Shown here piece by piece: positions 4,226 to 30,330 of a stretch of 36,485 bases of DNA. Within the stretch, counting starts at the first letter, position 1; each line of letters starts with the position of its first letter. The position numbers and the translations under genes were made by a program. The notes under the pieces are model-generated. The model worked only from the letters and a program-made list of their open reading frames with translations. It had not been told where the DNA came from and searched no databases. This DNA is from Bacteroidota bacterium (GTDB taxonomy: Bacteria > Bacteroidota > Bacteroidia > AKYH767-A > JABDAW01), in the NCBI GenBank assembly GCA_013288905.1, contig JABDAW010000006.1, positions 4,623 through 41,107 of the forward strand. Reading direction: 5' to 3'.

Positions 4226-4414
4226 TTCACTCAAAACTTTTGAATGAATCACCAAAACCTTTGGTTATTTACTCAAACGTTTTGATGATTTACCCAAACG
4301 TTTTGGTGGTTCACTCAAAACATTTGGTGGTTTACTCAAACGTTTTGGTGATTCATTCAAACGTTTTGGTGACTCACTCAAACGTTTTGGTGATTCACTC
4401 AAAAGCTTTCAGTG
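4226..4414. repeat. Array 1: nine contiguous 21-bp units, consensus ttcactcaaacgttttggtga
   Basis: Units start at 4226, 4247, 4268 ... 4394 with no phase change; a degenerate tenth follows. AAA...TTT dyad in each. Confidence 0.95.
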
Positions 4415-4599
4415 AGCCACCAAAAATCATTTTTGGAGCGGTTGACGAAGCCTTCTTAACAAATATTTATATGAATATCATAATATTATATATAGACAGT
4501 ATAAATGTTTAAAATTTCAACCATTTTTTATAAATCTTATAAAAATAGAAAAAATATTTTTTTTATTTTCTTATGATTTTATATTGTTAAAAAAAATTG

Positions 4600-4607
4600 T
4601 ATATTTG
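4600..4607 (+). promoter_or_regulatory. Bacteroidota-type -7 box (TAnnTTTG)
   Basis: TATATTTG about 55 bp upstream of the CDS at 4660. No well-spaced -33 TTG was found. Confidence 0.4.
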
Positions 4608-4659
4608 CCTCCTTAATAACTAATGCCTGTGAGAGCAGGAAAAATAAAAAATAAATAAA

Positions 4660-5331
4660 ATGATAAGTCAAAAATTTAACGGTTTCAACACATGGTTCCC
4701 GATAGTGATCGCGTACCTTATTTTAAATGCTACAAGATTGAGAATTTCCAGCGCACAAATAACTGCTTTAACCGCTATGGGCACAGCGTGGACTCCGGCT
4801 TGGGCAAAATATTCAAGCATGGCAACACAAACTCATGGCAGCATTTCAGACATTCAAGGTTTGTATGATGATGACCATTCTTACATGGAAAAGGTGAAAT
4901 TGCAATTGAAATATGACATGAATGTCGAATTGTCGGGCGATGACATCAGGGTTATTGAAATCCATGTGGATGCTGACCCACGCGGAGAAGTTCCTGCTTA
5001 TGGTTATGCACCTAATGGCGTGGTTGTTAATAACAGGCATTTGCTGGCTTCCATTGATGTTTCCAGCACCGAAGAAGGCCATACAAATGATGGCAAAAAG
5101 CCTGTGGATGTAGCAAGAATCGGCATGAAGAGAATTATTATAGGAGCTACTGCGCCTATTCCTGCCGCTTCGACTTTTTTGCCTTATCCTGCATCGGGTT
5201 CGGTAGATTTTGATATGGCATTCACAGCCGATCAGGCAGGGATGCAATGTTGCGTCGTTTTCTGGTATGAGAACCCAAAGGGCGATAATCGCAGCCCTGA
5301 AAGTGTCATGCTGGTTTTCCCGATAATCTAA
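4660..5331 (+). CDS. Hypothetical protein, 223 aa
   Basis: Long ORF with its own intergenic upstream region, a -7-like TATATTTG box about 55 bp upstream and a hairpin/T-tract terminator just downstream. Family not recognised. Confidence 0.75.
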   Translation: MISQKFNGFNTWFPIVIAYLILNATRLRISSAQITALTAMGTAWTPAWAKYSSMATQTHGSISDIQGLYDDDHSYMEKVKLQLKYDMNVELSGDDIRVIEIHVDADPRGEVPAYGYAPNGVVVNNRHLLASIDVSSTEEGHTNDGKKPVDVARIGMKRIIIGATAPIPAASTFLPYPASGSVDFDMAFTADQAGMQCCVVFWYENPKGDNRSPESVMLVFPII

Positions 5332-5350
5332 AGTTATTTCCTAAAAAAAT

Positions 5351-5380
5351 AAAGCCTTCTCAATGTGGGAAGGCTTTTTT
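5351..5380 (+). terminator. Rho-independent-type terminator, possibly bidirectional
   Basis: aaagccttc-tcaatgtgg-gaaggcttt followed by a T run; A-rich on the opposite side. Lies between convergent CDSs ending at 5331 and 5495. Confidence 0.85.
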
Positions 5381-5494
5381 GTGGACGAGAGTTTTTTTTT
5401 GTTCCAAATTTTTTACTCCTCCTTTTATGATAGCATCCCCTTTTTGGGGTGCTGCAATAAAATGAGGAGAATGATTAAACAACAATTACCAAGT

Positions 5495-6055
5495 TTATTG
5501 AGCACTGTTATTCTTCGCCGGAAGCTCCTTAAAGGAATTCAAAACCACATCCATATCTTTTTCATTATTGGGTAATAAATCAGCCACAGTCCAGCAGTAA
5601 ACCTGGTAGAAATGACTCATGCTCTCGATGATGTAACATTTATAAACCATCGTTAATTGATCATGCCTGCCGACGATGGTAACCTTATAGGCATCCAAGC
5701 CATTTACCTTGACCTGCTCGGGATTAGAGGACTGTACCTGTGTCAGGCTGCCGACAATATTGGAGGTGCTGGTATCGAAGAATTCAACCAAAGTGATGGC
5801 TTTGTTATTCACCGTGAGATTAGAACGGATTTCGTCAATAACGATGACATACATGTTTCGCATCGAATCTGAATATTGCAAAGAAGCATCATCATTCAGC
5901 AAGGTCTTGGAAGGCACGAGATAGGTGGGCAACTGGACGCTGTATAGATCTTTAATCTTGACTTCTCTGAAGGTCGTTTCCTCAGCATTTTTATTGGTAA
6001 CGGTGATGCATCCGGCAAGGAGGAGAAACAGGAGATATAGGGGAAGTTTGTTCAT
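5495..6055 (-). CDS. Small putative lipoprotein
   Basis: Internal start MNKLPLYLLFLLLAGCITVTNKN gives a lipobox (LLAGC). The ORF-track start at 6133 adds 26 residues upstream of the signal peptide, so the start is likely 6055. Confidence 0.7.
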   Translation of the reverse strand: MNKLPLYLLFLLLAGCITVTNKNAEETTFREVKIKDLYSVQLPTYLVPSKTLLNDDASLQYSDSMRNMYVIVIDEIRSNLTVNNKAITLVEFFDTSTSNIVGSLTQVQSSNPEQVKVNGLDAYKVTIVGRHDQLTMVYKCYIIESMSHFYQVYCWTVADLLPNNEKDMDVVLNSFKELPAKNNSAQ

Positions 6056-6299
6056 TAATTTGGGGAATAAAAAGCTATGATTCAAGGAACAAAAATAAAT
6101 ATTATTATGGAAACAAATATAGATAGAATCCATTATACCTTTTTAGCTCCTTATTTAATGCTAACTTTATTAAAGATGCTACGTAATAAGCAGAATTTAT
6201 TAATAAAATAACTTCTTTATAAAATATATTGGCTAATAAACTAATTTTGAGCGGTGAATAAAAGATACTTTTTCAGGAAAGGGCGAACGATAATTTGAT

Positions 6300-9200
6300 A
6301 TGAAGAGAAGCTTACTTGTGCTTTGTTTCCTTTGGTTTCACTGCTTTTACCATATTGCTTTTGCGCAAAATAATTTTAAATCTCAAGAGGATTTAAAGAA
6401 GAATGCCGAGAAGACTTTTACCGCAAAAGACTATGTAAAAGCGACGCCTCTATTCTCCCAACTGCTAAGTACGGTGCCTAAGGATGCTAATTATAATTAT
6501 AAATATGGGGTCTGTATTCTTTACACCAATAATGACAAGGGTAAGTGCCTGAAGTATCTGCAATTTGCGGCGAAGAATCCAAAAACCACGAATGATGTTT
6601 ATTATTATTTAGGGAAGGCATATCATCTGAATCAAAGGTATGACGAGGCAATCAGCGCATTCAATACTTTCAAAAAGAATGCCTCCTCAGGAGATATACA
6701 AAAGAAAGGTGTTGATGCAGAAATACAAAGTATCAACAATGCCAGGAATCATTTAGGCAGTAATGTCAATATGGTGATCGTGTCTAAGAATCAAATTCCT
6801 ATTGCCTCCTTCACAACCGCTTATGATGTGAGTGCAATGGGTGGAAAAATCATTGACAAACCGCCTATCTATAGGATGAAAGCTGATAAAAATGATATTA
6901 CAAATAATACTGTTTATATAAATAACGGTCTTAAAGTAATTTACTTTTCGAGCTATGGAATTGATGGGAAGGCTGGTAAGGATATATACAAAGTAACAAA
7001 GAATAAAAAGGGGGAATGGTCGGAGCCAGTAAACCTTGGTGCCCCTGTTAACACGGGTTCTGATGAAGATTATCCTTTTATATCTCAAGATGGCAAGACA
7101 CTTTATTTTTCGAGTAAAGGTCATAACAGTATCGGAGGATATGATGTCTTTAAATCGGTTTATGATTCTGCGAAAAACACCTGGTCTGAACCTGTAAGTG
7201 TGGGTACTCCTGTTAATTCTCCTTATGATGATCTGTTGTTTGTTGTTGATAGTACAGGCAATGCAAATTTTGCCTCCACCAGGGAGAGCAGTGATGGGAA
7301 TATTGGTTTTTATAAAATGATTATCTCTGAAAGACCTATTGAATTTACAACGATCAAAGGTTCTTTGAGAACAGATAAAACGACTGATTCAAAAGATGCA
7401 ACAATTACAATTTTAAATTACAATGATGGCAGTGTAGTTGATGTGATAAAGGCTGATGAACTGACAGGTTCTTATGACATGAAACTAAAGCCTGGCAGGG
7501 GTTATACTATTGTTGTTGAAAAGAAAGGTTATATTCCACATGCCGAGAATATATATATACCCGACCAACTTGTTGAGCATGTCTTAGGTCAAGAATTGAG
7601 ACTATCTAAAAGTGATTCTTTGGAAGAATTATCTATCTCGAATTACTTTTCAATTTTGGAAGAAAATACTGACCTGAATACAGCAATTAAAACAGAAGAA
7701 ATCACAAGTGATTTTAAGCATGCTGAAAACTATAAAGAGAAGTTGAAGACTGTTGCGATAAATGATAGAACAATTGATGTCACTCCACCTGTCAATGATA
7801 TTAGCATGCAGGCTAAAACACTTCCGGTATCTGCCTTTGCAATAAATACAGGAGCAAATAATATTTCCGTTGATACTTCCTCTCCATACTCAAAAGGCAA
7901 TGTAGCAGGGGGAACTTCTAACAATGAAACACCGGCAAAAAAAGAAGAAATTAAACCGGATACTTCCAAACAAGAAATACCTAATGTAATAACTGCCAAG
8001 ACCACTAATAATGAAATTGTAACTATTGCATATAGCGATGCTGCCGCCATTCAAAATGAAGCAAAGGAAATGAAAAAGAATGCTGAAATAGCTGAATCCA
8101 TAGGCAAAGCAAGAGATAGCATGGCAATAAATTTAAATAAAGAGATAGCTTCCTTACAAAAGAAAATTGCTGTAGAAAAGAATGTTGTTATTAAAAAGCA
8201 TTTGCAAGATTCTATACAGCAAAGGCAGAATGAAGCAGCACAATTAAAGGAGGAAGCAAATGTTGCATATTCACTTTCTAAAGAATATAATGAAGATGGA
8301 AGTAAACTTCAAAAGGATGCTGATGAAAGCCTTGCTATTGCAAAGGCTTTGGAGAATTCATCAAAAACTAAGGCAGATGTAAATAATCAAACTGCTGCAA
8401 AAAATAATGATAACAAAAGAATTGAAGATACTTTATATAAAAAGGTAGAGAAAATAAACACAAATGATTTGATATTAAAGGCAGCTGCAAGTTTTTCAGA
8501 ACTATCAAAAGAAAAGCTGATGGAATCGGATAGCGTGTCATTGGCGGCAAATCAACTAAAGACGGAATCTGTTTCTCTTACAAATAAAGCAAACGATACT
8601 ATTAAGAAAGCTACTATAACCCCTGAACCGGAGAAGACAAGATTAAGAAAGAAGGCAGCAGAATTGGAGCGGCAATCTGCACAAAAACAAATAGAATCAG
8701 ATCAAGCAACCACTCATGCAAGACAACTGAAAGACTCTGCTGTAAAAGAAGAGAAGAAGGCAACAATAGCAAAGGGTTTGACCAATGATATTATCAATTC
8801 TAAAGAAGGCATTACTGTAATTTCAACTCCTTCTACTCAAACTGAAAAAGGTTTTCAAAGTAGCGAAGTTAATAATGAAACAACGAAAAAAACAAATACG
8901 GCTGATACATTAGTAACTACTTCTATTGACAATGCTTCAAAGAATGATACAACAAAAATTACAAGCACTATAAAAAATAAAGGAAACATTCCGGATATTG
9001 CATTACCCACTCAAACAAAAAGCAATAATAATTTAAATGCAAATACCTCGTCAAATGGAGGAATTGATAAAGACAATAATGCTTCCAATGGAAATAACTC
9101 GATAAACATAAATAGTAATAATAGGAAGGACAGTCTTGTGGCGAATGTTGTTCCAAATGACACATCAATTAATCAAAGTAATGCATCAAAAGCCCCAACA

Positions 9201-11846
9201 ACAATAGATAGTGCGGCATATAAAGTAAAAGCTGATACACTTTATTCACAATCCAAAAGGCTTAATGATCAATCACAACAACTTTATGCAAAAGCAAAGA
9301 AATCTAAAAACCAAAAGGAGAAAATTAAATTGATGCAACAGGCTCAAAACCTAAGCGATTCCTCTATTGAGAAGCAAAAACAAGGTGATGTGGCAAGTGC
9401 AATTGCACCTCAAATAAAAACTACTGAAATACCTGCTGTAGTTGTAAAAAATGACACCCAAACAAATACGATTTCAAATGATACAACAACTAACAATGCT
9501 TCAATTGTTATAATAAAAGATACTTCCACATCTCCTAAAAAAATTGATACCGCATCTAAAGAAATAAAAGCAACTGCGGATGTTAGTAATCATCCATTGA
9601 AAGAACAAGGTGCCATAGAAAATAAAGGGAACATAGATTCTGCAAGGATAATTATTCCATCAACCACAAAAGGAAATGATGTTTCAAAAACTTCTAGAGC
9701 CACTAATGAAAATAATTTAAATTCTCAACAACCAATTAATTCGAACCCGGCTGAAAGCTTTAGGACACAGGCACTTCAATTAGATAATGAAGGGGATAGT
9801 CTTTCAAATCAATCGAAAATACTTTATGTAAAAGCTAAGGCTACCGATGATAAAGTTGAAAAGCGAAATCTTAATATGCAAGCATTCAATCTTCAAAATG
9901 AAAGTAAATCATTGCATCAACAGGCTGCTGATAAAAGAAAAGAGGCTGACCAATTAAATCAACCTAATTCCACTAATGAAATTGTAACAACTAAAGCTGA
10001 TACGAGCAATCAAAATATTGAGGTTGTAAAAAGCTCCGACAATAACACGAATGCAAAAAATTCTAATAACTCGATACCAGCGCAACCACCTGTTTCTATG
10101 GGGAATGAACGATTGGATACCAATAATGTTGATTATCCAAGATATATTCAATTGGTTGCATCAGCAAAGGAAAAACAGAAGGCAACAGAAGCTGAATTTG
10201 CGAAAGCAGTGGACTTGGAAAACCAGGCTAAAGATGAAAATAAGCAAGCCCAAGAAAAATTAGATCAGGTAAATAAATTAAAGAAGAAAAAAGAAAAACA
10301 ACAAGCCACGAAGGATGCTAAAAATTTACAAAGCGAAGCAAAATTAAAACAGCATGATGCCGACAGTATCTATGTTCTTGCAAAGGAAATGGCAAAACAA
10401 TCGGATAATCAAAAAGCTGAAGCGATTACATTAAGAGAAAAGTTGGAAATCCAAGACTCTGCTGATAAATCTTCTTCCAAAATAAATGAAACTGAATCAA
10501 AAAATAATACAAGAACCAAGCAAGATATTTCAAACAGTTCATCCAATAATTATGTCTTCAGCATCTCGAATGAAAAAGCCACTAAGAATGAGAAACGAAG
10601 CATTCCTCATAATGAAAAACTCCCTGATGGGTTATATTTTAAGGTCCAGATAGGAGCATTTAAAACACCTGTCTCCTCCGATGCCTTCAAGGGTTTGCAG
10701 CCCATAACTTATGAGGATGGTCCGAATGGATGGCTTCGATATACTGCAGGATTATTTCAAACTTTTGAGAGTGCCAACCTTGCAAAGAAAGAAATTAGAA
10801 GAATTGGTTACAAGGATGCCTTCGTCGTGGCTTATCATAACGGAAAAAGGATTTCAATTTACGAAGCAGGATTATTGATTCATGACTATACAAAACCTCA
10901 AAAGGAGACTTATCAATTTGTTTATATCGAAGAAACAAAGGTCTTGAAAGCTAACAGTATTTATCCTGAAAAGTATGCCCCGGAACTTGCGGATGTCAAT
11001 CTGAACGTCTTTAACAATGCGGTGAAAAGATCACCCGTGGCTTTGGTTAATGATGTGAATGATTCTTCAAAAAATACCGTTGCATCATCTTTACAAAACA
11101 ATATTCCCACCGCAACAACTTCTTCAAATCAATCTTCATTCAATATTAAAAACACCGATGGATTATTTTATACCATTCAGGTAGGTGTGTATGGAACTGC
11201 CACTCCCCCGCGCATTCTTGAATCATTGAAGCCATTAAATACTGAAGTTACTCCAAAGGGTTATTATCGTTTCTTATCTGGTCTGTATAATTACTTTCCA
11301 CCTGCCGATGCTGCCAAAAATCAGATTGCCAGGACTCTGGTTCCTGATGCTTTTGTGGTTGCTTATTATAAGGGTTCGAGGATCGGATTGGTACAGGCAA
11401 GGGAATTAGAAAAGACTGTTACCCCAACGAAATTTGATGTTGCCCCAACTTCTACAAACATTCAGGAACCCGCACCAATCAATACAAATACTACAACCAG
11501 CAATAACGATTCAGCCGCAATACATACTATTGCGCCAATAATCAAGGCACCTGAAGAACCTATAAGTCCCTCCACTATTATCTTCAAGGTTCAGTTGGGA
11601 GCTTATCGCGAACAGGTGCCTTTTGATGTGGTGGATTTGTTCCTAAAGTTAAGCAGCAAAAACATTACCCACTACAAGGATGCTGATGGTCTTACCTATT
11701 ACTTTGCCGGCGAGGTTCATGATTATGATACCGCAGTCCAATTAAAAAATATGGTCATTGCTGCCGGAATCAAAGATGCATTTGTCGTGGCTTTTAGCGG
11801 AGATAAAAAAGTCCCGATGGAGAAAGTAAAGAAGCTGGTTAAATAA
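6300..11846 (+). CDS. 1848-aa TPR + PD40-like + coiled-coil + three SPOR-like domain protein
   Basis: Signal peptide; TPR-like N-terminus; PD40-type motifs (DEDYPFISQDGKTLYFSSKGHNSIGGYDVFKS); Asn/Lys/Ser-rich coiled-coil middle; three C-terminal SPOR-like repeats (YFKVQIGAFK..., YTIQVGVYG..., FKVQLGAYR...). Confidence 0.9.
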   Translation: MKRSLLVLCFLWFHCFYHIAFAQNNFKSQEDLKKNAEKTFTAKDYVKATPLFSQLLSTVPKDANYNYKYGVCILYTNNDKGKCLKYLQFAAKNPKTTNDVYYYLGKAYHLNQRYDEAISAFNTFKKNASSGDIQKKGVDAEIQSINNARNHLGSNVNMVIVSKNQIPIASFTTAYDVSAMGGKIIDKPPIYRMKADKNDITNNTVYINNGLKVIYFSSYGIDGKAGKDIYKVTKNKKGEWSEPVNLGAPVNTGSDEDYPFISQDGKTLYFSSKGHNSIGGYDVFKSVYDSAKNTWSEPVSVGTPVNSPYDDLLFVVDSTGNANFASTRESSDGNIGFYKMIISERPIEFTTIKGSLRTDKTTDSKDATITILNYNDGSVVDVIKADELTGSYDMKLKPGRGYTIVVEKKGYIPHAENIYIPDQLVEHVLGQELRLSKSDSLEELSISNYFSILEENTDLNTAIKTEEITSDFKHAENYKEKLKTVAINDRTIDVTPPVNDISMQAKTLPVSAFAINTGANNISVDTSSPYSKGNVAGGTSNNETPAKKEEIKPDTSKQEIPNVITAKTTNNEIVTIAYSDAAAIQNEAKEMKKNAEIAESIGKARDSMAINLNKEIASLQKKIAVEKNVVIKKHLQDSIQQRQNEAAQLKEEANVAYSLSKEYNEDGSKLQKDADESLAIAKALENSSKTKADVNNQTAAKNNDNKRIEDTLYKKVEKINTNDLILKAAASFSELSKEKLMESDSVSLAANQLKTESVSLTNKANDTIKKATITPEPEKTRLRKKAAELERQSAQKQIESDQATTHARQLKDSAVKEEKKATIAKGLTNDIINSKEGITVISTPSTQTEKGFQSSEVNNETTKKTNTADTLVTTSIDNASKNDTTKITSTIKNKGNIPDIALPTQTKSNNNLNANTSSNGGIDKDNNASNGNNSININSNNRKDSLVANVVPNDTSINQSNASKAPTTIDSAAYKVKADTLYSQSKRLNDQSQQLYAKAKKSKNQKEKIKLMQQAQNLSDSSIEKQKQGDVASAIAPQIKTTEIPAVVVKNDTQTNTISNDTTTNNASIVIIKDTSTSPKKIDTASKEIKATADVSNHPLKEQGAIENKGNIDSARIIIPSTTKGNDVSKTSRATNENNLNSQQPINSNPAESFRTQALQLDNEGDSLSNQSKILYVKAKATDDKVEKRNLNMQAFNLQNESKSLHQQAADKRKEADQLNQPNSTNEIVTTKADTSNQNIEVVKSSDNNTNAKNSNNSIPAQPPVSMGNERLDTNNVDYPRYIQLVASAKEKQKATEAEFAKAVDLENQAKDENKQAQEKLDQVNKLKKKKEKQQATKDAKNLQSEAKLKQHDADSIYVLAKEMAKQSDNQKAEAITLREKLEIQDSADKSSSKINETESKNNTRTKQDISNSSSNNYVFSISNEKATKNEKRSIPHNEKLPDGLYFKVQIGAFKTPVSSDAFKGLQPITYEDGPNGWLRYTAGLFQTFESANLAKKEIRRIGYKDAFVVAYHNGKRISIYEAGLLIHDYTKPQKETYQFVYIEETKVLKANSIYPEKYAPELADVNLNVFNNAVKRSPVALVNDVNDSSKNTVASSLQNNIPTATTSSNQSSFNIKNTDGLFYTIQVGVYGTATPPRILESLKPLNTEVTPKGYYRFLSGLYNYFPPADAAKNQIARTLVPDAFVVAYYKGSRIGLVQARELEKTVTPTKFDVAPTSTNIQEPAPINTNTTTSNNDSAAIHTIAPIIKAPEEPISPSTIIFKVQLGAYREQVPFDVVDLFLKLSSKNITHYKDADGLTYYFAGEVHDYDTAVQLKNMVIAAGIKDAFVVAFSGDKKVPMEKVKKLVK

Positions 11847-12057
11847 TAGACCTCTATCATATTTAATCACTATTTGTTTTATAAAAAGTCCCCCCAGGGA
11901 CAACTTCTAATCTTTTGCTATAAACAGGTAATCACTACCGGACTTTCGCACCATCTGATTTGCGATAATTATGAAAGAAGTCTAATCCCTCCTCTATGTT
12001 TTATAATTTTGGAATAATGTGAAATTTAATTAGGCATGAAGAAATTTTTCTCTTCTT

Positions 12058-12288
12058 AATACAAATTATAGAAGGCGGAATACAAATTATAGGAAGGGGG
12101 ATGGTATTTATAGGAAGCGGGACGGTAATTACAGGAGAAGGGACGGTAATTATAGGAAGGGGAATGATAATTATAGAAGCTGGGATAATAATTATAGGAC
12201 AGCAGAAAGCAATTATAGAAGGAGGGAAGGACATTATAGAAGGAGGGACAGCAATTATAGAAGGGGGGACAGGCATTATATATTGCAT
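12058..12288. repeat. Array 2: eleven contiguous 21-bp units, consensus ~gacggtaattataggaagggg
   Basis: Units start at 12058, 12079, 12100 ... 12268, all exactly 21 bp. Confidence 0.95.
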
Positions 12289-12599
12289 AGAAATCAATAC
12301 TTTAGATAATTTTTTGCTGGCTTTCATCTTTTATAATAACAGGGAATTCAAAACTTAATTGTAACAAACCATTATACGCCAAATGAAATTAGAAATTAAT
12401 CATTCAAAATAACAAAGCCATAAGATACATGGAATAGATGTCGTGCTTTATCGGATTTTTTTAATGTTTATAAAATGGAGTTTAATTTAACAAACATGAA
12501 AAAAAGATGAATGATAATAAACCTTTTTAATATATTCGCCGTCTTAAAAAAATAGAATACATTCCTTCCACCTTTTGTATCACTTCATAAAAACAAAAT

Positions 12600-16814: not shown

Positions 16815-16876
16815 TTTTCTTGGAATGTTTCATAAGATAGGAATAATGCTGCTTTGTTGTATATACGAAGTTTCGG

Positions 16877-16946
16877 CTTGTCATTCCGTCGAAGGAGGAA
16901 TCCTATTATTATTCCAATAAGATTCCTCCTTCGTCGGAATGACAAG
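16877..16946. repeat. REP/MITE-like hairpin, copy 1
   Basis: cttgtcattccgtcgaaggaggaatc ... gattcctccttcgtcggaatgacaag: 26-bp arms, one mismatch. Confidence 0.93.
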
Positions 16947-17066
16947 GACTCACAGTTTCAAAAATGTAATTGTATTATTGGTTTATTCAGCCCAACAGTC
17001 CTTATTAAGAATATCCTTTTCCAAAGATTCAATATTGAATACTGAAAGATTAAGGTTGTGTTGATT

Positions 17067-17107
17067 AACTTTACTAAAGCTTTGAACTTTAGTAAAGTCA
17101 GATGCCA
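17067..17107. repeat. Solo copy of the shell-module palindrome pair
   Basis: aactttactaaagctttgaactttagtaaagtcagatgcc; same as the start of 5' modules A and C but not followed by an array. Confidence 0.85.
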
Positions 17108-17125: not shown

Positions 17126-17293
17126 ACTCCTACGGAGTTTTGGAAGTTGTTGTTCCTTGTTTGCTATTAAGATTTCACTCCTTCGGAGTTTTAGAAAGAA
17201 CCTTAAGAATATTTAAAAACTCCGTAGGAGTGAAATCTTAATAGATAATATGCTCCATCATACCATTAAAACTCCTTAGGAGTGACATGATAT
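17126..17293. repeat. Cluster of cactcctacggagt-type palindromes
   Basis: ttcactcctacggagtttt (17125ff), ctattaagatttcactccttcggagttttaga (17164ff), inverted aaaaactccgtaggagtgaaatcttaatag (17215ff), and aaaactccttaggagtgacat. Confidence 0.85.
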
Positions 17294-17297
17294 GGAG

Positions 17298-17426
17298 AAC
17301 TTTACTAAAGCTTTCAACATTAGTAATGTCAGATGCCGAACTCCTTGCCATTAAAGCCTTCCATCCACATCTCTTTCCTGAAGTTCCTGGTATGGAAATT
17401 CTTTTTCTAAGTATAAGAGTGGAAAT
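17298..17426. repeat. Conserved 5' shell module, copy A (precedes array 3)
   Basis: 17347-17407 gccattaaagccttccatccacatctctttcctgaagttcctggtatggaaattctttttc is identical over 61 bp to 25327-25387. Confidence 0.95.
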
Positions 17427-17972
17427 TCTAAGGTTATATGCACTGTATCTAAGGTTAGTTACAGTGTATCTAAGGTTAGTTACAGTGTATCTAAGGTTAG
17501 ATACGCTGTATCTAAGGTTAGATACGCTGTATCTAAGGTTAGATACGCTGTATCTAAGGTTAGATACGCTGTATCTAAGGTTAGATACGCTGTAACTAAG
17601 GTTAGATACACTGTAACTAAGGTTAGATACAGTGTAACTAAGGTTAGATACAGTGTAACTAAGGTTAGATACGCTGTAACTAAGGTTAGATACAGTGTAA
17701 CTAAGGTTAGATACAGTGTAACTAAGGCTACATACGGAATTTGTAAGCAAGCATACAGAAGATGTAAGCACACATACAGAAGATGTAAGCACACATACAG
17801 AAGATGTAAGCACACATACAGAAGATGTAAGCACACATACAGAAGATGTAAGCAAGCATACTGAAGATGTAAGCACACATACAGAAGATGTAAGCACGCA
17901 TACAGAAGATGTAAGCACGCATACGGAAGATATAAGCACACATATTGATAATGTATGCTTACATTATCAAAT
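17427..17972. repeat. Array 3: ~26 units of 21 bp, two unit families in one register
   Basis: 17427-17741: 15 units near tctaaggttagatacgctgta. 17742-17951: ~10 units near tgtaagcacacatacagaaga. Further degenerate 21-mers extend to about 18056. Confidence 0.95.
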
Positions 17973-18181
17973 CTTATGCTTAGACCTTTCATTCTTAACC
18001 TTGGATCCACTATCTCTAACCTTCTTTTTCCTGAACATAAGGTTGCGATTTCAACTATTAAACATAGAAATTCTTGTCTTTACATTAGATAAGAAATTTC
18101 AAGAGATGGTTCTTCAATAAAGATAAGTTTTTAAATCGCCCTGTTTATTGGGAATTCTGGAAAGAACCTTATTTTGAATTT

Positions 18182-18341
18182 AATGACTGTCGGGTTGTAT
18201 AAACCAAATTTTATCTTGTCATTCCGACGAAGGAGGAATCCTATCCATATTTCTATAGGATTCCTCCTTCGTCGGAATGACAAGTTTACACAGTTTTTAT
18301 ACTGTAATTATATTGTTGGTATAAATAACCCGACAGTCATT
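18182..18341. mobile_element. MITE-like nested palindrome, copy 2 of the same hairpin with 15-bp outer inverted repeats
   Basis: Outer aatgactgtcgggtt / aacccgacagtcatt (perfect). Inner 30-bp perfect arms 18215-18244 / 18255-18284 with a 10-nt loop. Confidence 0.82.
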
Positions 18342-18371
18342 TTGAATTTATATAAGGTATAATATGTTTCC

Positions 18372-20987: not shown

Positions 20988-21219
20988 ACTAATATTATCA
21001 AATTTACCTCCTTTAAATATTTCGGTGGTAAAATTAGAAGAACATTTCTGAATGGCAATACCAATTAAGGTATCTTTAACAGCAATAGAAAAAAGGTTCT
21101 TAGAATAGTTCAAACCCTGCTATTGACAGGTCAATTGGGTTATTGAATATTTAATGGAAAGGAAAAAAGATTTACATTGATTGTCCGGAAATCTGTTTTG
21201 ATGAACTTTACCATTAATG

Positions 21220-21282
21220 ATGAGTTATGAAGTAGGAGTTATGAATCTGTTGACAACTCATAACTCATACTTAATAACTCAT
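21220..21282. repeat. 25-bp-arm inverted repeat touching a stop codon
   Basis: atgagttatgaagtaggagttatga / tcataactcatacttaataactcat, 23/25 pairing. The right arm ends in the stop codon of the minus-strand CDS (21282-21284). Confidence 0.9.
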
Positions 21283-22523: not shown

Positions 22524-22569
22524 GATTTTAATTTGTTTGATAAAACGATTTTTGAATATTTTGGAATGG

Positions 22570-22577
22570 CAAAGTTA
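22570..22577 (-). promoter_or_regulatory. Bacteroidota-type -7 box (TAnnTTTG)
   Basis: TAACTTTG on the minus strand about 47 bp upstream of the start at 22523. No clear -33 element. Confidence 0.4.
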
Positions 22578-22614
22578 CATTAAATAGTTTGGAATAGGAA
22601 AAGTTTCCACGAAT

Positions 22615-22706
22615 CCTTTCAGGTGCGAAGCTCCTGGAAGGTTTAATTCTTATAAATCAAGAGAAATGTATGCATCCTGACTGGAGCTTCGCACCAGTCA
22701 GGATGC
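22615..22706. repeat. Two adjacent hairpins with complementary loops
   Basis: cctttcagg-tgcgaagct-cctggaagg (22615-22641) and gcatcctgactgg-agcttcgca-ccagtcaggatgc (22672-22706). The loops are exact reverse complements. Confidence 0.92.
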
Positions 22707-22750
22707 CTGTTCCAAAAACTTAGTCAATGGTTGAAATTGTTTAGCCTATA

Positions 22751-22881
22751 TTTTTTTAACCTTAGTAGAAAGTAATGTTAAGTGAGACATAAAAACCTTA
22801 TTACCTTATTTAACTTTATATAATATGGCAATAAGGTTTTAAAATCTAAACTTGTTTCCTATTCTACTAAGGTTAAAAAAA
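22751..22881. repeat. Inverted-repeat element upstream of array 4
   Basis: 20-bp perfect arms tttttttaaccttagtagaa (22751-22770) / ttctactaaggttaaaaaaa (22862-22881), with inner aaaccttatt / aataaggttt arms. Confidence 0.92.
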
Positions 22882-22882
22882 A

Positions 22883-22989
22883 CAGCAGGAACATCAGATG
22901 CCGAACTCCTTGCCATTAAAGCATTCCAGCAACATCTCTTTCCTGAAGTTCTTGGTATGGAAATTCTTTTTCCAAGTATAAGAGTGAAA
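22883..22989. repeat. Conserved 5' shell module, copy B (precedes array 4)
   Basis: 22912-22972 matches copies A and C at about 57 of 61 positions. The upstream catcagatgccgaactcctt matches copy A. Confidence 0.95.
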
Positions 22990-23325
22990 TATCCAGGCGT
23001 AAGACCTCAACTCTTATGCATAAGACCCCAACTCTTATGCATAAGACCTCAACTCTTATGCATAAGACCCCGACTCTTATGCATAAGACCTCAACTCTTA
23101 TGCATAAGACCTCAACTCTTATGCATAAGACCCCAACTCTTATGCATAAGACCTCAACTCTTATGCATAAGACCCCGACTCTTATGCATAAGACCCCGAC
23201 TCTTATGCATAAGACCTCAACTCTTATACTTAGATATTTCACTCTTATGCCTAAGAGTTGAAGTCTTATACTTAGATATTTTATTCTTATGTATAGTTCC
23301 TCGACTCTTAACCTTGGTTTTTTAA
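22990..23325. repeat. Array 4: 16 units of 21 bp, core unit ctcttatgcataagacc[c/t]c[a/g]a
   Basis: Ten near-identical units 23011-23220 plus degenerate edge units, all 21 bp. Each core unit holds the 12-bp palindrome CTTATGCATAAG. Confidence 0.96.
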
Positions 23326-23411
23326 GAAAGAACCTTGGAAATAGTATTTACAGATATAGTTCTTTAGCTTTTATGTATAGCTTCTATAGAAGCATACTTT
23401 CTTCCATTAAT
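23310..23411. repeat. Conserved 3' shell module, copy B (follows array 4)
   Basis: aaccttggttttttaagaaagaaccttggaaatagt...cttccattaat; 102 bp, ungapped match to 25809-25910 with about 12 mismatches by eye. Confidence 0.93.
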
Positions 23412-23443
23412 ACCTTGCAAGGAACCCTTGATTTGAATAATAG

Positions 23444-23814
23444 ACCTCTTCGGAAAATAGTAAAGTAAGTATAAAATTTCCTTTTTAACCTTAGTATAAA
23501 ACCTGGCATTGGCTGTAATCCAAACCTTATTCCCTTATTCAATAGGCTTTACTGGGAATTTTGTGGGTAAATGATTATAGCGGGATATTAACCAAAATTT
23601 AAAGGGATAAAATTTAACCACAGAGTACACAGATTAACACAGATTTTGGTCGCCAAGAATCTGTGTTAATCTGTGTACTCTGTGGTTAAATTTTATCCTA
23701 TTGAATCAATGTAAATTAAGCTTCCCACAAAATTCCCAGTAGAACCATTCAATAAGGTAATAAGGTCATCATTGACTCTAATTATTTTCTACTAAGGTTA
23801 TTTTCCGAAGAGGT
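23444..23814. mobile_element. ~370-bp nested inverted-repeat element
   Basis: Layers: acctcttcggaaaata/tattttccgaagaggt; aaccttagta/tactaaggtt; accttattcccttattcaat/attcaataaggtaataaggt (imperfect); actgggaattttgtggg/cccacaaaattcccagt; centre is a 41-bp perfect hairpin. Confidence 0.8.
23605..23698. repeat. 41-bp-arm perfect hairpin (ccacagagtacacagattaacacagatt type)
   Basis: 23605-23645 is the exact reverse complement of 23658-23698; loop ttggtcgccaag. Confidence 0.96.
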
Positions 23815-23858
23815 ATAATCTTTCCTACAATCTGATTAGTGAAGGAGCTGCTTTTAAA

Positions 23859-25223
23859 TTATTTTTCGCGGGTAAATCGTACAAAAACACCTTCTTGTTT
23901 CAGAAGAAATGAAGCAGCATCCGTCTCAAAAAGAAGTTCAATTCCATAATCAAAATTCTTAAAATCATCTTTTGCAATCGCTTCCATCGGAATAGGAATT
24001 TGTCCTGTCGCCTGATTGATTAAAGTAGAATCATGCTTACTGATAGTGATGTGCATCTCTAATCCTTTATTATAATAGATTCCCAAATACTTATTTAATT
24101 CTTCGGGACTGACATTTATGGTTTTATGATTAGAAATAGTATAAGGTTTATTGTAACAAATCTTCAGGACAGTACTCATCACTTCGCTGATAGCTGTCAC
24201 GGTGCCATTAGTACATAAAGCAACGGTAAAATGATCCTCAGGAAAGTATTCCAAAGTAGAAACAAAGCCGTCTATTTGCCCGGTATGACCATACCCAAGC
24301 TTGTTGTAGAAAAGGAAAGTAAACATTCCCATTCCATAATCATCCTTCATTGTTTTCATAAGTTCAAGACTGTTTTTATTAACCAACTTACAGGCAAATA
24401 GAGCATCAATAAATTTATTTAAATCGCTCGGAGTAGCGACTACAGACCCGCTCCCGACAAAGACACTACCGTCGGACTCCTTCATTTTAGCGGCATGATT
24501 CCCGGTAAAGAAATAAGAATAAGACTCCTTGTTCTTCACATCAATTTTAGTGGTGGAATAGGTATTTTCTAATCCAAGCCTGGCAGTTATTCTATCCCGA
24601 AGCGCATCCTTGTAAGACTGATGACAAATCTTTTCAATAATATAAGCCAGCAGATTATAATTTGTGTTGCTATAAGCAAACTTCTCATCCGGCGCAAATT
24701 CGGGAGGCTTGCTTGCAATAAGAGAAAGCATTTCTTCTTGTGTTTTCGGCTGATCCATCCAATCATAAAATGCAGTATCTTCGGTGAAATCAAAAAGCCC
24801 GCTCCTGTGTTGAAGAAGATGAGTGATGGTAATTTTATCAGCATTGGGAAGGCGAGGAAAAAACTTCTTTAGCGTATCCGTAAGACTTAATTTCCCCTCC
24901 TCGACAAGCTCCAAAATCATGGTCGCAGTAAACAGTTTGGAGATAGAACCTATTTTATATTTGGTATCAATGGTGGAATGGATTTTCTCTTCCTTGGAAA
25001 TTAAGGAATAGCCCGTGCTGCAGGTATAAATAATCGTATCATTCTTAGAAACAGCAATGCTGTACATCCCTTTATGATTGCTCATGATGGCGGTAAACAA
25101 ACTATCCAATCTTTCTTTATTAATACTTTGGGCACTACATATATTAATGCTAATACCAGCCAAAAAGAAGGCTGCGAAAACGGTATAAACAATCAACCCA
25201 TTTCTAAAATTAAGGAAACTCAT
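23859..25223 (-). CDS. Serine hydrolase of the class C beta-lactamase / penicillin-binding family
   Basis: KYKIGSISKLFTATMILELVEEGKL contains the SxxK motif; LLQHRSGLFDF, YSNTNYNLLAYIIEKI and GYGHTGQIDGF are family motifs. Signal peptide at MSFLNFRNGLIVYTVFAAFFLAGISINICSAQ sets the start at 25223. Confidence 0.9.
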   Translation of the reverse strand: MSFLNFRNGLIVYTVFAAFFLAGISINICSAQSINKERLDSLFTAIMSNHKGMYSIAVSKNDTIIYTCSTGYSLISKEEKIHSTIDTKYKIGSISKLFTATMILELVEEGKLSLTDTLKKFFPRLPNADKITITHLLQHRSGLFDFTEDTAFYDWMDQPKTQEEMLSLIASKPPEFAPDEKFAYSNTNYNLLAYIIEKICHQSYKDALRDRITARLGLENTYSTTKIDVKNKESYSYFFTGNHAAKMKESDGSVFVGSGSVVATPSDLNKFIDALFACKLVNKNSLELMKTMKDDYGMGMFTFLFYNKLGYGHTGQIDGFVSTLEYFPEDHFTVALCTNGTVTAISEVMSTVLKICYNKPYTISNHKTINVSPEELNKYLGIYYNKGLEMHITISKHDSTLINQATGQIPIPMEAIAKDDFKNFDYGIELLFETDAASFLLKQEGVFVRFTREK

Positions 25224-25277
25224 ATTAGTTATTTGTTTTTGCAAAACTAAAATTTCAAAAGGAAAGGAAGGGTGAAG

Positions 25278-25419
25278 AACTTTACTAAAGTTTCTGACTT
25301 TAGTAAAGTTGAAAGCCGAACTCCCAGCCATTAAAGCCTTCCATCCACATCTCTTTCCTGAAGTTCCTGGTATGGAAATTCTTTTTCCAGGTATAAAAGG
25401 GAAAAATCTAAGGTTAGTT
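25278..25419. repeat. Conserved 5' shell module, copy C (precedes array 5)
   Basis: 61-bp identity to copy A at 25327-25387; also shares the upstream aactttactaaag palindrome pair. Confidence 0.95.
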
Positions 25420-25818
25420 TCCAAGGAACAGTGCATTGTTTCAAAGGAACAGTGCATTGTTTCCAAGGAACTGTGCATTGTTTCCAAGGAACAGTGCATT
25501 GTTTCTAAGGAACTGTGCATTGTTTCCAAGGAACAGTGCATTGTTTCCAAGGAACTATGCATTGTTTCCAAGGAACAGTGCATTGTTTCCAAGGAACAGT
25601 GGATGGTTTCTAAGGAACTATGCATTGTTTCCAAGGAACAGTGCATTGTTTCTAAGGAACAATGCATGGTTTCTAAGGAACTATGCATGGTTTCCGAGGA
25701 ACTATGCATTGTTTCCGAGAAACTGTGTATAGTTTCAAAGGAACTATGCTTAGATGCTAAGGAACTGTGCCTGGTTTCCGAGGAACTATGCTTAGATACT
25801 GTGCATCTAACCTTAGTT
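25420..25818. repeat. Array 5: ~19 units of 21 bp, consensus tccaaggaacagtgcattgtt
   Basis: Units start at 25420, 25441 ... 25777, 25798 with constant period; units become more diverged toward the 3' end. Confidence 0.96.
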
Positions 25819-25910
25819 TTTTAAGAAAGAATCTTGGAAATAGTACTTATAGATATAGTTCATTTCCTTTTATGTTTAGGTTCTATAGAAGGATGCTTTC
25901 TTCTATTAAT
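25809..25910. repeat. Conserved 3' shell module, copy C (follows array 5)
   Basis: aaccttagttttttaagaaagaatcttggaaatagt...cttctattaat; 102 bp, homologous to 23310-23411. Confidence 0.93.
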
Positions 25911-25959
25911 TCGTTGCATCAAAGTAAGTTAAGGGAATAAAGGTTTAAAGGCATAGGGC

Positions 25960-26068
25960 ATAAGGTATAGGGAATAGGGTATAGGGTATAAGGTATAGAG
26001 TATAAGGTATAGAGTATAAACCTTATACCCTATACCTTATACCCTATACCCTATTCCCCATGCCTTAT
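25960..26068. repeat. 48-bp-arm hairpin made of ataggg/ataagg tandem motifs
   Basis: Arms 25960-26007 and 26021-26068 pair with about 3 mismatches; 13-nt loop. Confidence 0.92.
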
Positions 26069-26101
26069 ACCCTATTCCCAAAACACTTACTTTAATTTTT
26101 C

Positions 26102-26109
26102 TAATTTTG
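26102..26109 (+). promoter_or_regulatory. Bacteroidota-type -7 box (TAnnTTTG)
   Basis: TAATTTTG about 30 bp upstream of the CDS at 26139, just downstream of a 48-bp-arm hairpin. No clear -33 element. Confidence 0.4.
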
Positions 26110-26138
26110 GCATCTCATAATCTAATAATATATACAAC

Positions 26139-27932
26139 ATGAAAAGTCTATCCTTAATCGTAATCACCTTTGTTTTAGCCACCTTCAGTATTGCCCAGAC
26201 CATCCCTGCATCTAAGAGAGTGCAATGGTCTCCTGTCGGAATGTTTTCTAATAATCCTGTCATCACCACCGAACTTAATGTCATGAATTTTGGTGCTCAT
26301 GGCGACAGTATCAATGATGATGCCCATGCCATTGACAGTGCCATGAACTCTTTGAATGGTCATGCCGGCATTATCTATTTTCCTCACGGAAATTATCTGA
26401 TTAAATCAACGTTGAATCTGCCTGACAGTGTCATTCTGCGTGGTGATTGCTATGATTCTGCACGTTTGATTTTTAATCTTAATGGTGCTAATATTGATTG
26501 CATAGATGCCCAGGTAAATCAGACTGATACCTTCCAAAACATTGTTGCAGGATTTACCATAGATACTACTTATATTGTTCTGGACAGCACTACCGGCTTC
26601 AATGTCGGCGATTATGCTGAAATTTCCGAGACTAATGGCGCCTGGAATACTGTTCCCGCGACATGGGCTGTGGATTGTGTCGGGCAGATCATTCATATAA
26701 CTGCCATCAGTGGCGATACGATTCACTTTACGAACCCTTTGCGAATCAACTATACACCTTCTCTTCATCCCCAGATTAGAAAATGGACTCCGAGAAAGTT
26801 TGTTGGCATCGAAGATTTGCGCATGACCCGTGCTGATACCGGTCTGCCCGCAGGAGGCTATATGATGAATTTCTATAACGCCATTAATTGTTGGGTAAAG
26901 GGCGTTGAAAGTTATCATAGTTGTGGTGCTCATGTGGCTCTGAATGTCAGTACCAATATTACTGTATCAGGATGTTATTTTCATGATGCTTATGCTTATG
27001 ATGGCACGAATACAAGGGGCTACGGCGTTATGATGATTCAGCATACCGGGCAATGTCTGGTAGAAAATAATGTCTTTAATCATCTTCGTCATGCTGTCAT
27101 TGTGAAGCAGGGTGCTAATGGAAACGTTGCCGGGTATAACTATGCCATTAATGAATATCGCGTGGAAAATCCCACTGATGCAGGAGCCGATCTGGTATGT
27201 CACGGGCACTATTCTTTTGCTAATTTATTTGAAAGTAATATTGTAAATAATATCATGATAGATTCGACTTGGGGACCCACAGGTCCTTATACCACTTTCT
27301 TTCGTAATCGCGCGGTATTGTATGGTATTTTGATGACTCCCGGTGCCAGTGTTTTATCAGACAGTCTTAATTTCGTCGGCAATGAAACTACTGACAATGC
27401 TTTTCTTCATGGCTTATATTATCTTGCCGGTACGAATCATTTTCAATGGGGTAATAATATCTTAGGCACCATCACTCCGGCGAATACCACTCCTCTTCCT
27501 GATACGTCTTATTATAGAACATCATTTACTGACCTCTTTCCGACCACTCCCTATCCTCCAACCATTGGTATTCCTAATACTTTGAATACAGGCACCATTC
27601 CCGCCATGCAAAGATATGTTGCCGCTGGAAGGATGACAGTTTCACCAAATGCTCCTTGTGTTTTAACAGGAATTCCTTCGATTAATTCTACAGAGAAAGT
27701 TCTTATTTATCCCAATCCTGCTGCTGATAATTTCTTTGTCATGTTGAATAATAATGGTTCTTCTACTCTGGAAATAATTACGTTGGATGGAAGAATGATT
27801 TCTTCTGTTTCTATTCCCAAAGACCAGCATCTTACAGAAATAAATACTGCTGATTTCCCACAAGGCATCTACTTTATCAAGGTGATTAATGATAAAGAAG
27901 TCGTGGTGAAGAAGATTGCTGTAGAAAGGTAA
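26139..27932 (+). CDS. Secreted parallel beta-helix (pectate-lyase-like) protein with T9SS C-terminal sorting domain
   Basis: NVMNFGAHGDSINDDAHAIDSAMNSLNGHAGIIYFPHGNYLIKSTLNLPDSVILRGDC is typical of pectate-lyase-like proteins; C-terminus LIYPNPAADNFFVML...GIYFIKVINDKEVVVKKIAVER. Confidence 0.88.
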   Translation: MKSLSLIVITFVLATFSIAQTIPASKRVQWSPVGMFSNNPVITTELNVMNFGAHGDSINDDAHAIDSAMNSLNGHAGIIYFPHGNYLIKSTLNLPDSVILRGDCYDSARLIFNLNGANIDCIDAQVNQTDTFQNIVAGFTIDTTYIVLDSTTGFNVGDYAEISETNGAWNTVPATWAVDCVGQIIHITAISGDTIHFTNPLRINYTPSLHPQIRKWTPRKFVGIEDLRMTRADTGLPAGGYMMNFYNAINCWVKGVESYHSCGAHVALNVSTNITVSGCYFHDAYAYDGTNTRGYGVMMIQHTGQCLVENNVFNHLRHAVIVKQGANGNVAGYNYAINEYRVENPTDAGADLVCHGHYSFANLFESNIVNNIMIDSTWGPTGPYTTFFRNRAVLYGILMTPGASVLSDSLNFVGNETTDNAFLHGLYYLAGTNHFQWGNNILGTITPANTTPLPDTSYYRTSFTDLFPTTPYPPTIGIPNTLNTGTIPAMQRYVAAGRMTVSPNAPCVLTGIPSINSTEKVLIYPNPAADNFFVMLNNNGSSTLEIITLDGRMISSVSIPKDQHLTEINTADFPQGIYFIKVINDKEVVVKKIAVER

Positions 27933-28037
27933 TATCCAAATTATATATTCAGTCTTCGGGTTTTCACCTCGTGGAATGATGTGCTATTATTTGTCCATTA
28001 ACTTTGTAATATTGCACCTCAAAATAAACACATATAT

Positions 28038-28976
28038 ATGAGTAGAAATTTAATTGTATTAATGACTGTAATGATGATTGCAGTAAGTGCTGCGGCACAG
28101 AATGATTCTTTAACGAAGAAAGATACTTTAACCAAAAGAGATACTATCTGGCGTAGAGGCGGCTATGGAAATGTAACCTTCAATCAAGCTTCCTTTTCAG
28201 ATTGGGCTGCGGGCGGACAAAATTCCTATGGCGGGAATGCTTTGTTATCTCTTTTTGCTAAAATGAAAAGTGGAAAATGGGCTTGGGATAATACCCTCGA
28301 CTTAGCCTTTGGTGGTTCCAAAATAGGTAACCAACATGCGCAGAAGACTGATGATAAAATTGACTTTAACTCTAAGGTGGGTTGGGATATGGGGCGTAAT
28401 TTTTATCTAACTTACCTTCTTGGCTTCAAAACTCAATTTACAGAAGGATTTAATTATACTGATACCTCCAGAACGAGGATTTCAAACTGGCTCACGCCTG
28501 CTTATCTTTTAAATTCTGTGGGTATAGATTGGAAGCCTTCTGATAAACTTTCGGTTTATTTGTCTCCGGTAACATCCCGAACCACTTTTGTGGAAGATCA
28601 GATGCTTATTAATGAAGCTCTCCTGGCTAATCAAACTCTTTTCGGTGTTCCTCCGGGCTTAAAGATGAAAAATGAAATAGGAGCGTACTTTAAATTGAAG
28701 CATCGCTTTAAAGTTATGCAGAATATAAACCTTAGTTCAGAGGTAGATTTGTTTTCTAATTACGAACAAAACCCTCAAAATGTAGTTGTCAATTGGGAAG
28801 AAGTCCTCGCCATGAAAGTTAATAAATATATTAATGTCCTTATCCAGACTCAATTGATTTATGATGATCAGGTTTTGATTCACAGAGCTAATGGCACTGC
28901 TGGTCCAGGCACTCAATTCAAAGAAGCTTTAGGCATAGGATTTGCTTATCGTTTTGAAGGATTTGGAATAAAATAA
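28038..28976 (+). CDS. DUF3078-family protein
   Basis: WRRGGYGNVTFNQASFSDWAAGGQNSYGGNALLSLFAKMKSGKWAWDNTLDLAFGG is characteristic; signal peptide present. Confidence 0.87.
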   Translation: MSRNLIVLMTVMMIAVSAAAQNDSLTKKDTLTKRDTIWRRGGYGNVTFNQASFSDWAAGGQNSYGGNALLSLFAKMKSGKWAWDNTLDLAFGGSKIGNQHAQKTDDKIDFNSKVGWDMGRNFYLTYLLGFKTQFTEGFNYTDTSRTRISNWLTPAYLLNSVGIDWKPSDKLSVYLSPVTSRTTFVEDQMLINEALLANQTLFGVPPGLKMKNEIGAYFKLKHRFKVMQNINLSSEVDLFSNYEQNPQNVVVNWEEVLAMKVNKYINVLIQTQLIYDDQVLIHRANGTAGPGTQFKEALGIGFAYRFEGFGIK

Positions 28977-28988
28977 TAATTGATTATT

Positions 28989-29969
28989 ATGGCTGGAAAT
29001 AATAGCAACAATAAAACTAATGTAGCTCTTATTTCTTTTGCCTTCCTTCTTTTCTTCACCATTATTTTTAGTCAGCGTGTAGAAAGTTTTTCTGTAAAGC
29101 CCTTTAAGCCTGTTGCCGCCGATACCACCGAAATAGCTTTCGTTGCTGATACTCAAGCCCCCTTATGGGTCGAAACTTTGAAGCTCAAGCGCAATCATAA
29201 TGAGAAAGCCACAGAGATGATCTTTAAAGAAATACTTGCTACTCATCCGCGATGTTTCTTTATTCTTGGCGATATTGTTTCATGGAGCGGGATTGAGAAA
29301 AATTGGAATATAATGGACAAATATCTCAGAGATTTGAGGGCTGCGAATATCCCTGTTTATGCTTGTCTTGGAAATCATGAATATCTTGGAAGCGGCACCG
29401 ATGGTCAAACTAATTTCCAGAAGCGATTTCCTAATCACCATAATACCGGATATGTTGAAATTGTTGATTCCATAGCGGTTGTCTTGATGAATTCAAATAT
29501 AAAGGTAATGAGTCCCAAAGATACTGCCATTCAAAATCAATTCTACAAGGAAACTTTGAAACGATTGGATGCAGACCCCGCCATTCAATATATTATTGTA
29601 GGCTGCCATCATCCCCCATATACCAACAGCAGCATTGTCAATCCTTCTAAGAATGTAATGAACTATTTCGTGCCCCTTTTCCTTCGCACGAAGAAGTGTA
29701 AACTCTTTATTACCGGGCATTCACACAACTTCGAATACTTTAAAAGAGATGGGAAGGACTTTGTAATTGTCGGAGGCGGCGGTGGTCTTCATCAACCTCT
29801 CGTTAAAACTTCAAAACGAATTCCTGACTCTGCCAATGGCTATGATCCGATGTTTCATTATCTTACTATAAAGAGATTCAACGACCATCTTCAACTTACA
29901 TCCCATCAACTTAAAGAAGACTTCTCCGGTTTTGAAAACGGCTTTACCTTTGCTATTCAAAAACCATAG
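28989..29969 (+). CDS. Metallophosphoesterase
   Basis: FVADTQ, ILGDIVSW, CLGNHEYLG, VGCHHPPYTNSS and ITGHSHNFEYF match calcineurin-like phosphoesterase motifs. The listed start is TTG at 28980; an in-frame ATG lies at 28989. Confidence 0.9.
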   Translation: MAGNNSNNKTNVALISFAFLLFFTIIFSQRVESFSVKPFKPVAADTTEIAFVADTQAPLWVETLKLKRNHNEKATEMIFKEILATHPRCFFILGDIVSWSGIEKNWNIMDKYLRDLRAANIPVYACLGNHEYLGSGTDGQTNFQKRFPNHHNTGYVEIVDSIAVVLMNSNIKVMSPKDTAIQNQFYKETLKRLDADPAIQYIIVGCHHPPYTNSSIVNPSKNVMNYFVPLFLRTKKCKLFITGHSHNFEYFKRDGKDFVIVGGGGGLHQPLVKTSKRIPDSANGYDPMFHYLTIKRFNDHLQLTSHQLKEDFSGFENGFTFAIQKP

Positions 29970-29994
29970 GGTTCTTAGAAAAACTCATGACCTT

Positions 29995-30330
29995 GAAGGC
30001 AATAGAAAATAACTGCTCACATCCTTCTAAACTTTTGGAATTGAGCAAGTAGTATTGATCAGACCATTCCATCTTTGCGGAATGGAGTAAGCGGTACTGA
30101 TCAGACCATTCCCAAACTTCGGAAGGCAGTGATTGATACCGATCATTGTTATCTAAAACATTGGAATGATATGAACAGTGTTTTGTATTGTAGTCCAAAA
30201 CTTTGATTTTAAATGAAAATAACTGACCATTACGGAACACATTTGCGTTTCGCAGTGACCCGTACGACTTAGTCCAAAACAAATTTGCGTTTCGCAGTGA
30301 TCCGTACGACTCAGTCCAAAACACATTTGT
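29995..30330. repeat. Array 6: eight degenerate 42-bp (2 x 21) units
   Basis: Units start at 29995, 30037, 30079, 30121, 30163, 30205, 30247, 30289, each exactly 42 bp. The last two are nearly identical (gtttcgcagtga[c/t]ccgtacgact[t/c]agtccaaaaca[a/c]atttg). Confidence 0.88.

Follow-up and report, generated by a model that had tools for sequence, protein, structure and literature searches.

A constant-length 21-bp satellite with rewritten units in the intergenic DNA of a Bacteroidota genus

Our analysis of tandem arrays in three genomes of one Bacteroidota genus shows that the sequence of the repeat unit is rewritten quickly while its length and hairpin-like symmetry stay. We tentatively interpret the arrays as a genome-wide, constant-length satellite, in which units are rewritten and their length and dyad symmetry are kept as a spaced platform at the level of the DNA, an account that we hold as somewhat short of probable when taken as a whole. 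Its rewriting half is well supported and its platform half is hypothetical. The evidence in its favor comprises the constant period, the diversity of the units, signs of local duplication, array replacement, dyads, strand symmetry, a non-coding nature and the co-occurrence of arrays at orthologous positions. Fixed length with drifting sequence has been a puzzle in some bacteria ever since such repeats were described. The genus offers dense arrays, three genomes and element copies with conserved flanks and replaced arrays. Such copies separate length from sequence and make selection on the period, the dyad symmetry and the function of the leader directly testable.

Tandem arrays of the window

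The window, which is the whole stretch of 36,485 nucleotides that was analysed, lies on contig C6 of a Bacteroidota genome (G000; 2.64 Mb, 58.7% complete). TRF and unit listing identified real 21/42-bp arrays at five of the six sites for which the original prediction had reported a strict period (Table 1). Arrays A1 to A5 hold the register, with a self-identity of 0.67-0.94 at lags 21, 42, 63 and 84 and of at most 0.45 at off-register lags. The sixth site (A6) is only weak, and the count of eight 42-mers made earlier was too high, A6 consisting of 2.4 and 2.2 copies of two 42-mers. A3 is composed of two abutting arrays whose units differ (91-94% match in A3a and A3b by TRF). A3, A4 and A5 are not independent of one another. 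These three have a left flank of ~95-130 bp in common, A4 and A5 also have a right flank in common, and the A3 unit matches the reverse complement of the degenerate right end of A5.

Table 1. Arrays and flanking elements of the window (positions are those of the window)
Feature	Position	Strand	Description
Array A1, degenerate	4204..4403	.	TRF: 21 bp x 9.5, 77% match; unit ATTCACTCAAACGTTTTGGTG
A2 flank	11992..12057	+	Common to arrays L255 and L256 of G000; 86-90% identity over about 60 bp
Array A2, degenerate	12058..12280	.	TRF: 21 bp, about 10 units, ~73%; AATTATAGGAAGGGGGATGGT type
A3 leader flank	17293..17426	+	GATGCCGAACTCCTTGCCATTAAAGCCTTCCATCCACATCTCTTTCC...; one of six copies in G000
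Array A3a	17427..17735	.	TRF: 21 bp x 14.7; unit TCTAAGGTTAGATACACTGTA; 8-bp stem TTAGATAC/GTATCTAA
Array A3b	17730..17944	.	TRF: 21 bp x 10.2; unit ACATACAGAAGATGTAAGCAC; adjoins A3a, register continuous
A4 leader flank	22900..22999	+	94% identity with A3 leader, 89% with A5 leader
Array A4	23000..23310	.	21/42 bp, 87-90% match; TAAGACCTCAACTCTTATGCA; 7-bp stem CATAAGA/TCTTATG
A4 right flank (tail)	23309..23419	+	87% identity with A5 right flank
A5 leader flank	25273..25416	+	Sequence homology with A3 and A4 leaders
Array A5	25417..25791	.	TRF: 21 bp x 17.9, 85%; unit GTTTCCAAGGAACTGTGCATT
A5 right flank (tail)	25808..25918	+	A3 unit, in reverse complement, at its inner edge
A6, weak	30025..30329	.	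Two unlike 42-mers, 2.4 and 2.2 copies, 111 bp between

Relatives of these arrays were recognised outside the window. A1 has a homologue in an array of a second genome of the genus (G002, L227:16440-16562; unit CACTCAAAACTTTTGAGTACA), which lies beside the orthologous gene. The unit of A5 is also that of the array at L004, a further copy of the A5 leader, and the left flank of A6 is 93% identical over 107 bp to the flank of L259, a 42-bp array elsewhere in G000. An inverted repeat that is long and nearly perfect (of the CATTCCGWCGAAGGAGGAATCCTAT...ATAGGATTCCTCCTTCGTCGGAATG type) occurs twice, once on each side of A3, at 16882-16945 and 18220-18284. Inverted repeats and arrays with 7/14-bp units, such as (GAATAGT)53, were also observed in the window (25948-26079 and 34072-34147) and at L007:3578-3951 and L008:4716-4973. 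Heptamer arrays are found, too, in a genome of the same family (G003) and in unrelated Bacteroidota, and they therefore look like a separate, wider phenomenon.

Period, placement and sequence of the arrays in the genus

The sequence given to TRF comprised 432 kb from the window genome, 277 kb from G001 and 1,055 kb from G002 (a genus total of 1.76 Mb over three genomes) and 123 kb from G003, and arrays of at least 60 bp were counted. The genomes are fragmented drafts in which genes were called with a simple codon-score script, and totals per genome are extrapolations from the sampled stretches. The sharp excess of 21- and 42-bp periods with diverse units that was predicted for the genome and its relatives did emerge: 319 of the 379 arrays in the genus have periods at multiples of 21 (50/79 in G000, 41/45 in G001 and 228/255 in G002), and periods of 20 or 22 are almost absent. 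The lag spectrum of G002 registered 236 segments at lag 21 versus 3 at lag 20, and 264 at lag 42 versus 6 at lag 41 and 8 at lag 43. None of the five arrays in the 123 kb of G003 had a period at a multiple of 21, and among 80 other Bacteroidota loci (1.32 Mb) two of 20 arrays did, both at 84. Indels are as scarce as originally noted (0% in 226 of 294 arrays), and higher-order units of 42, 63, 84 and 126 bp are present in the genus. Arrays are spaced at one per 4.5-9 kb, and in G000 and G002 they account for 2.7-3.9% of the sequence sampled. Their median length is 184-200 bp, a figure that we do not count as evidence, for 17 of 48 contig starts in G002 fall inside arrays and assembly probably cuts long ones. 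Arrays with periods of 21, 42 and 63 bp also occur in G061, a Bacteroidota genome outside the sampled genus (L155:3687-3943 and L233-L237; several with a common GGTCTCANCGG-like core), and the trait is thus not confined to this genus. A 42-bp array carrying the perfect palindrome TTCGCACATGTGCGAA was observed in G044, a genome of the same class (L065:345-577).

All arrays were located between genes, as the original prediction had it, and none was found inside a called gene in the sampled genomes of the genus. They occupy 26-77% of the intergenic gaps of at least 150 bp, varying with genome and gene orientation, and their own orientation relative to genes follows no consistent rule or preference. 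In two of the three genome pairs, arrays co-occur at orthologous gene sides above the level of independent placement (combined p 0.02), but of the 23 array pairs at such sides just 3 show clear sequence kinship. In the clearest orthologous pair (L015/L199), AAAACGGTCGT is kept and the adjacent palindrome differs (CCTGAAATTTCAGG versus TTCCAGAATTCTGGAA).

The lack of homology between the units of different arrays was confirmed in an all-against-all comparison, in which between-array similarity equalled the shuffled distribution bar about 22 related pairs out of 7,750. Within arrays, repeats are imperfect (mean adjacent-unit match, 87%); the identity of adjacent units is 0.919 and falls to 0.863 at a distance of eight units, and end units have a divergence of 0.085 versus 0.052. 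Adjacent units that are most alike and end units that are most diverged are the mark of local duplication. No universal short motif was found across the arrays, the best short word in G002 being CGGAA (16 of 99 arrays versus 6 expected; the G000 and G001 samples are small). The 10.5-bp harmonic is absent within units, in G+C as in AA/TT, and curvature phasing encoded in the sequence was rejected on these grounds. Of the original interpretation, the intergenic placement of the arrays and their non-coding nature are supported, and phasing through sequence-encoded curvature is not.

Inverted repeats and leader flanks

Three properties were missed in the first reading of the window: the excess of inverted repeats, the leader elements and the independent evolution of flanks and arrays. 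Stems of at least 6 bp are present in 20 of 100 non-redundant units versus 3.2% in dinucleotide shuffles (p 4e-11); with the minimum set at 5 bp the figures are 35 of 100 versus 12.4%, and two thirds of the 21-bp units lack a stem of that size. Stem columns are half as variable as other columns (29 of 38 arrays, p 0.002). Furthermore, double changes kept the pairing in 17 of 34 cases versus 27 of 157 slid controls, with a p-value (2e-4) that is approximate because the repeat units of one array are related by descent and not independent. A cruder dyad-arm measure yielded a weak palindrome enrichment, the clear signal coming from contiguous stems, and by this measure the dyads of the 42-bp arrays lacked covariation.

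Many arrays directly adjoin a repeated leader, and some a repeated tail as well. The left flank of A3, A4 and A5 is present in six copies in G000, each adjoining a 21/42-bp array. Another leader, that of L038, occurs in two species, at nine places in G002 and at six in G000. All 15 copies lead within about 100 bp into an array of 21, 22, 42 or 63 bp, from about seven unit families, and a search of 295 genomes of the class returned only two marginal short matches to this leader outside the genus. Units of 22 bp (CTTGCCTTAGCAAGTATACCTA) rather than 21 characterise one leader subfamily (L020:8168-8332, L243, L244, L245 and L248), which is a rare case of period drift. Flanks can be 85-94% identical yet border unrelated arrays, as is the case for A3, A4 and A5, and in A4/A5 and L038/L231 unrelated arrays are enclosed by flanks conserved on both sides. 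Among same-genome pairs with edge-adjacent flank homology, 12 of 32 have unrelated arrays, and in these 12 the flanks are on average 86% identical. L038 and L209, on the other hand, have an array in common and unrelated flanks. Array and flank therefore evolve independently. Flank and array have also been duplicated whole, as in L010/L011 (89% over 527 bp), and the genus has several unrelated flank families.

Two other flank features were considered and discarded. The core ATCCACNNCNCTTTCC, common to two leaders, is present at only a few arrays and is not a general array mark, and the inverted flanks of G001, considered as element termini, turned out to be REP-like elements located where convergent genes end. 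REP-like hairpin elements (CCCGCTATCCGCTGTAGCC...AGCAGCGGGCTGCCGCTACTATCGGGGCT) were observed at gene ends in G001 (L034, L079, L104 and others), and G002 carries a REP-like element of 232 bp at 63 places (L260-L275). Other repeated flanks in these two genomes are separate REP-like elements close to gene ends, which means that a shared flank need not be a leader.

Explanations and known systems

In the mechanism that we propose, units multiply through local duplication, as the gradient of identity within arrays shows. Duplication, slippage and template switching would then keep rewriting the unit, which may be seeded in part from the array edge because the A3 unit matches the right end of A5 in reverse complement. 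Unit length, at two helical turns, and dyad symmetry could persist because the array serves as a regularly spaced DNA platform, whose putative user would most likely be a nucleoid or architectural protein responding to spacing and symmetry and not to one fixed sequence. With neither a universal motif nor a 10.5-bp compositional phasing in the arrays, the sequence does not point to a ligand for this candidate platform, and the counts of HU/IHF and RAYT are not special in the genus (no expansion of HU or of RAYT). We consider unlikely a stronger form of the account, in which a dedicated protein would read 21-bp-spaced dyads of any sequence and organise the chromosome at several hundred sites between genes, the leader nucleating and renewing each array. 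The chief rival to the platform is a mutational process with no function, a serious possibility that we nevertheless regard with some doubt. Here, a 21-bp slippage register, whether inherited or mechanistic, combined with quasi-palindrome template switching, would renew intergenic arrays that are simply tolerated. The signatures of local duplication, the emergence of a new unit from edge sequence (the right end of A5 and the unit of A3), the absence of a universal motif and a residual identity at lag 21 in intergenic DNA beyond the arrays are all consistent with such a process, as are dyads and pairing-preserving changes that are equal on both strands, which template switching would give. Template switching that extends imperfect inverted repeats is, according to PMC3820800, an established type of mutation, and quasi-palindrome correction plus slippage could yield both symmetry and covariation without function. 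However, this process leaves unexplained why the period is exactly 21 after replacement of the whole unit, why nothing similar appears in the 123 kb of G003, in the same family, and why they co-occur at orthologous gene sides.

The flanks bring mobility into consideration. Non-autonomous, MITE-like elements carrying a minisatellite, as BrickBuilt does, would copy leader, array and tail together, with later divergence of the array. Repeated leaders and tails do adjoin arrays, and whole flank-plus-array duplicates such as L010/L011 exist; copying of this kind is likely a true part of the story, not the whole. As the sole explanation it is quite unlikely, for terminal inverted repeats scored below the 95% shuffle level in the four element copies tested, the flank families are several and unrelated, arrays and flanks reassort (L038/L209), and the elements account for spread but not for constant length. 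The hairpins in the units could also suggest that transcribed arrays act as strings of RNA hairpins or as small RNAs, and an RNA role has been proposed for Bacillus repeats (PMC8161180; PMC8625621). Yet folding is equal on the sense and antisense strands, with the sense strand lower in 39 of 74 cases between co-directional genes, and G-T mismatches equal A-C mismatches, which favors a DNA-level cause over an RNA cause. Given also the lack of orientation preference relative to genes and of any Rfam match in the window, we regard an RNA role as improbable. Least credible of all are translated heptad-repeat proteins (21 bp being seven codons), although single arrays are open in a frame that starts in the leader (L242, L238). 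The variable columns have no mod-3 signal of a codon pattern (z = -0.27), open frames are in no excess over GC-matched intergenic 21-mers (an excess against simple shuffles disappeared with this control), and the leader ATG is lost in L243, L244, L245 and L248. Translation into 7-aa repeats is therefore refuted as a general account. Neither of the outcomes named at the outset as contrary to the original prediction, a broad spread of periods or translation in one conserved frame, was observed.

Concerted evolution of the alpha-satellite type in eukaryotes produces homogenised tandem units, higher-order repeats and array edges that are more diverged. The genus arrays are close to this pattern, with homogenised units, higher-order repeats (42, 63, 84 and 126 bp) and more diverged edges, but here the arrays are short and scattered between bacterial genes at hundreds of sites. 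Archaeal Borg tandem repeats (PMC9879509) are perfect, of many unit lengths and about half in ORFs. Units unique to a locus, fast turnover and a likely origin from local sequence are common to both, whereas the genus arrays keep a fixed length, consist of imperfect repeats and are absent from called genes. The nearest anatomical match is BrickBuilt of Porphyromonas gingivalis, a minisatellite-MITE whose single element, with one 23-nt unit, occurs in 19 copies and has terminal inverted repeats of the IS5 type (PMC4596501). BrickBuilt has, like the elements described here (A4/A5 and L038/L231 for leader and tail; a leader in 15/15 copies), an intergenic leader, a short tandem array and a tail in many copies in a Bacteroidota host. 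Unlike in BrickBuilt, the units vary between copies, there are several leader families and terminal inverted repeats were not found.

The original prediction knew of no named class for this pattern, but tandem repeats in bacteria that keep a constant size (20-21 or 52 nt) and vary in sequence have been published (Subirana and Messeguer, 2021; PMC8161180), and prokaryote satellites have been surveyed (PMC6749651). The former study (PMC8161180) noted that the length equals two helical turns, proposed a nucleoid role or protein, and demonstrated transcription for the 52-nt repeats of Bacillus coagulans. A short sequence that is characteristic of a species and present in most of its repeats is described there as usual, not defining, and flanks and leaders go unmentioned. 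The genus arrays are like these repeats in their constant length of 20-21 nt (319/379 at multiples of 21), in their unrelated sequences with several families per genome, in being non-coding and in being nearly species-specific, with leaders confined to the genus bar marginal matches and 3/23 orthologous-side pairs clearly related. They are unlike them in their Bacteroidota host, their density of one array per 4.5-9 kb, their higher-order units of 42 to 126 bp (42/63/84/126), their leader flanks that outlast the arrays and their measured inverted-repeat constraint, and, as far as the samples show, no short sequence is common to all of the repeats here. As the defining features that were tested are all present, the genus arrays belong to the same constant-size kind (PMC8161180). 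Relative to the published descriptions compared, their leader anatomy, array replacement and symmetry statistics appear to be new.
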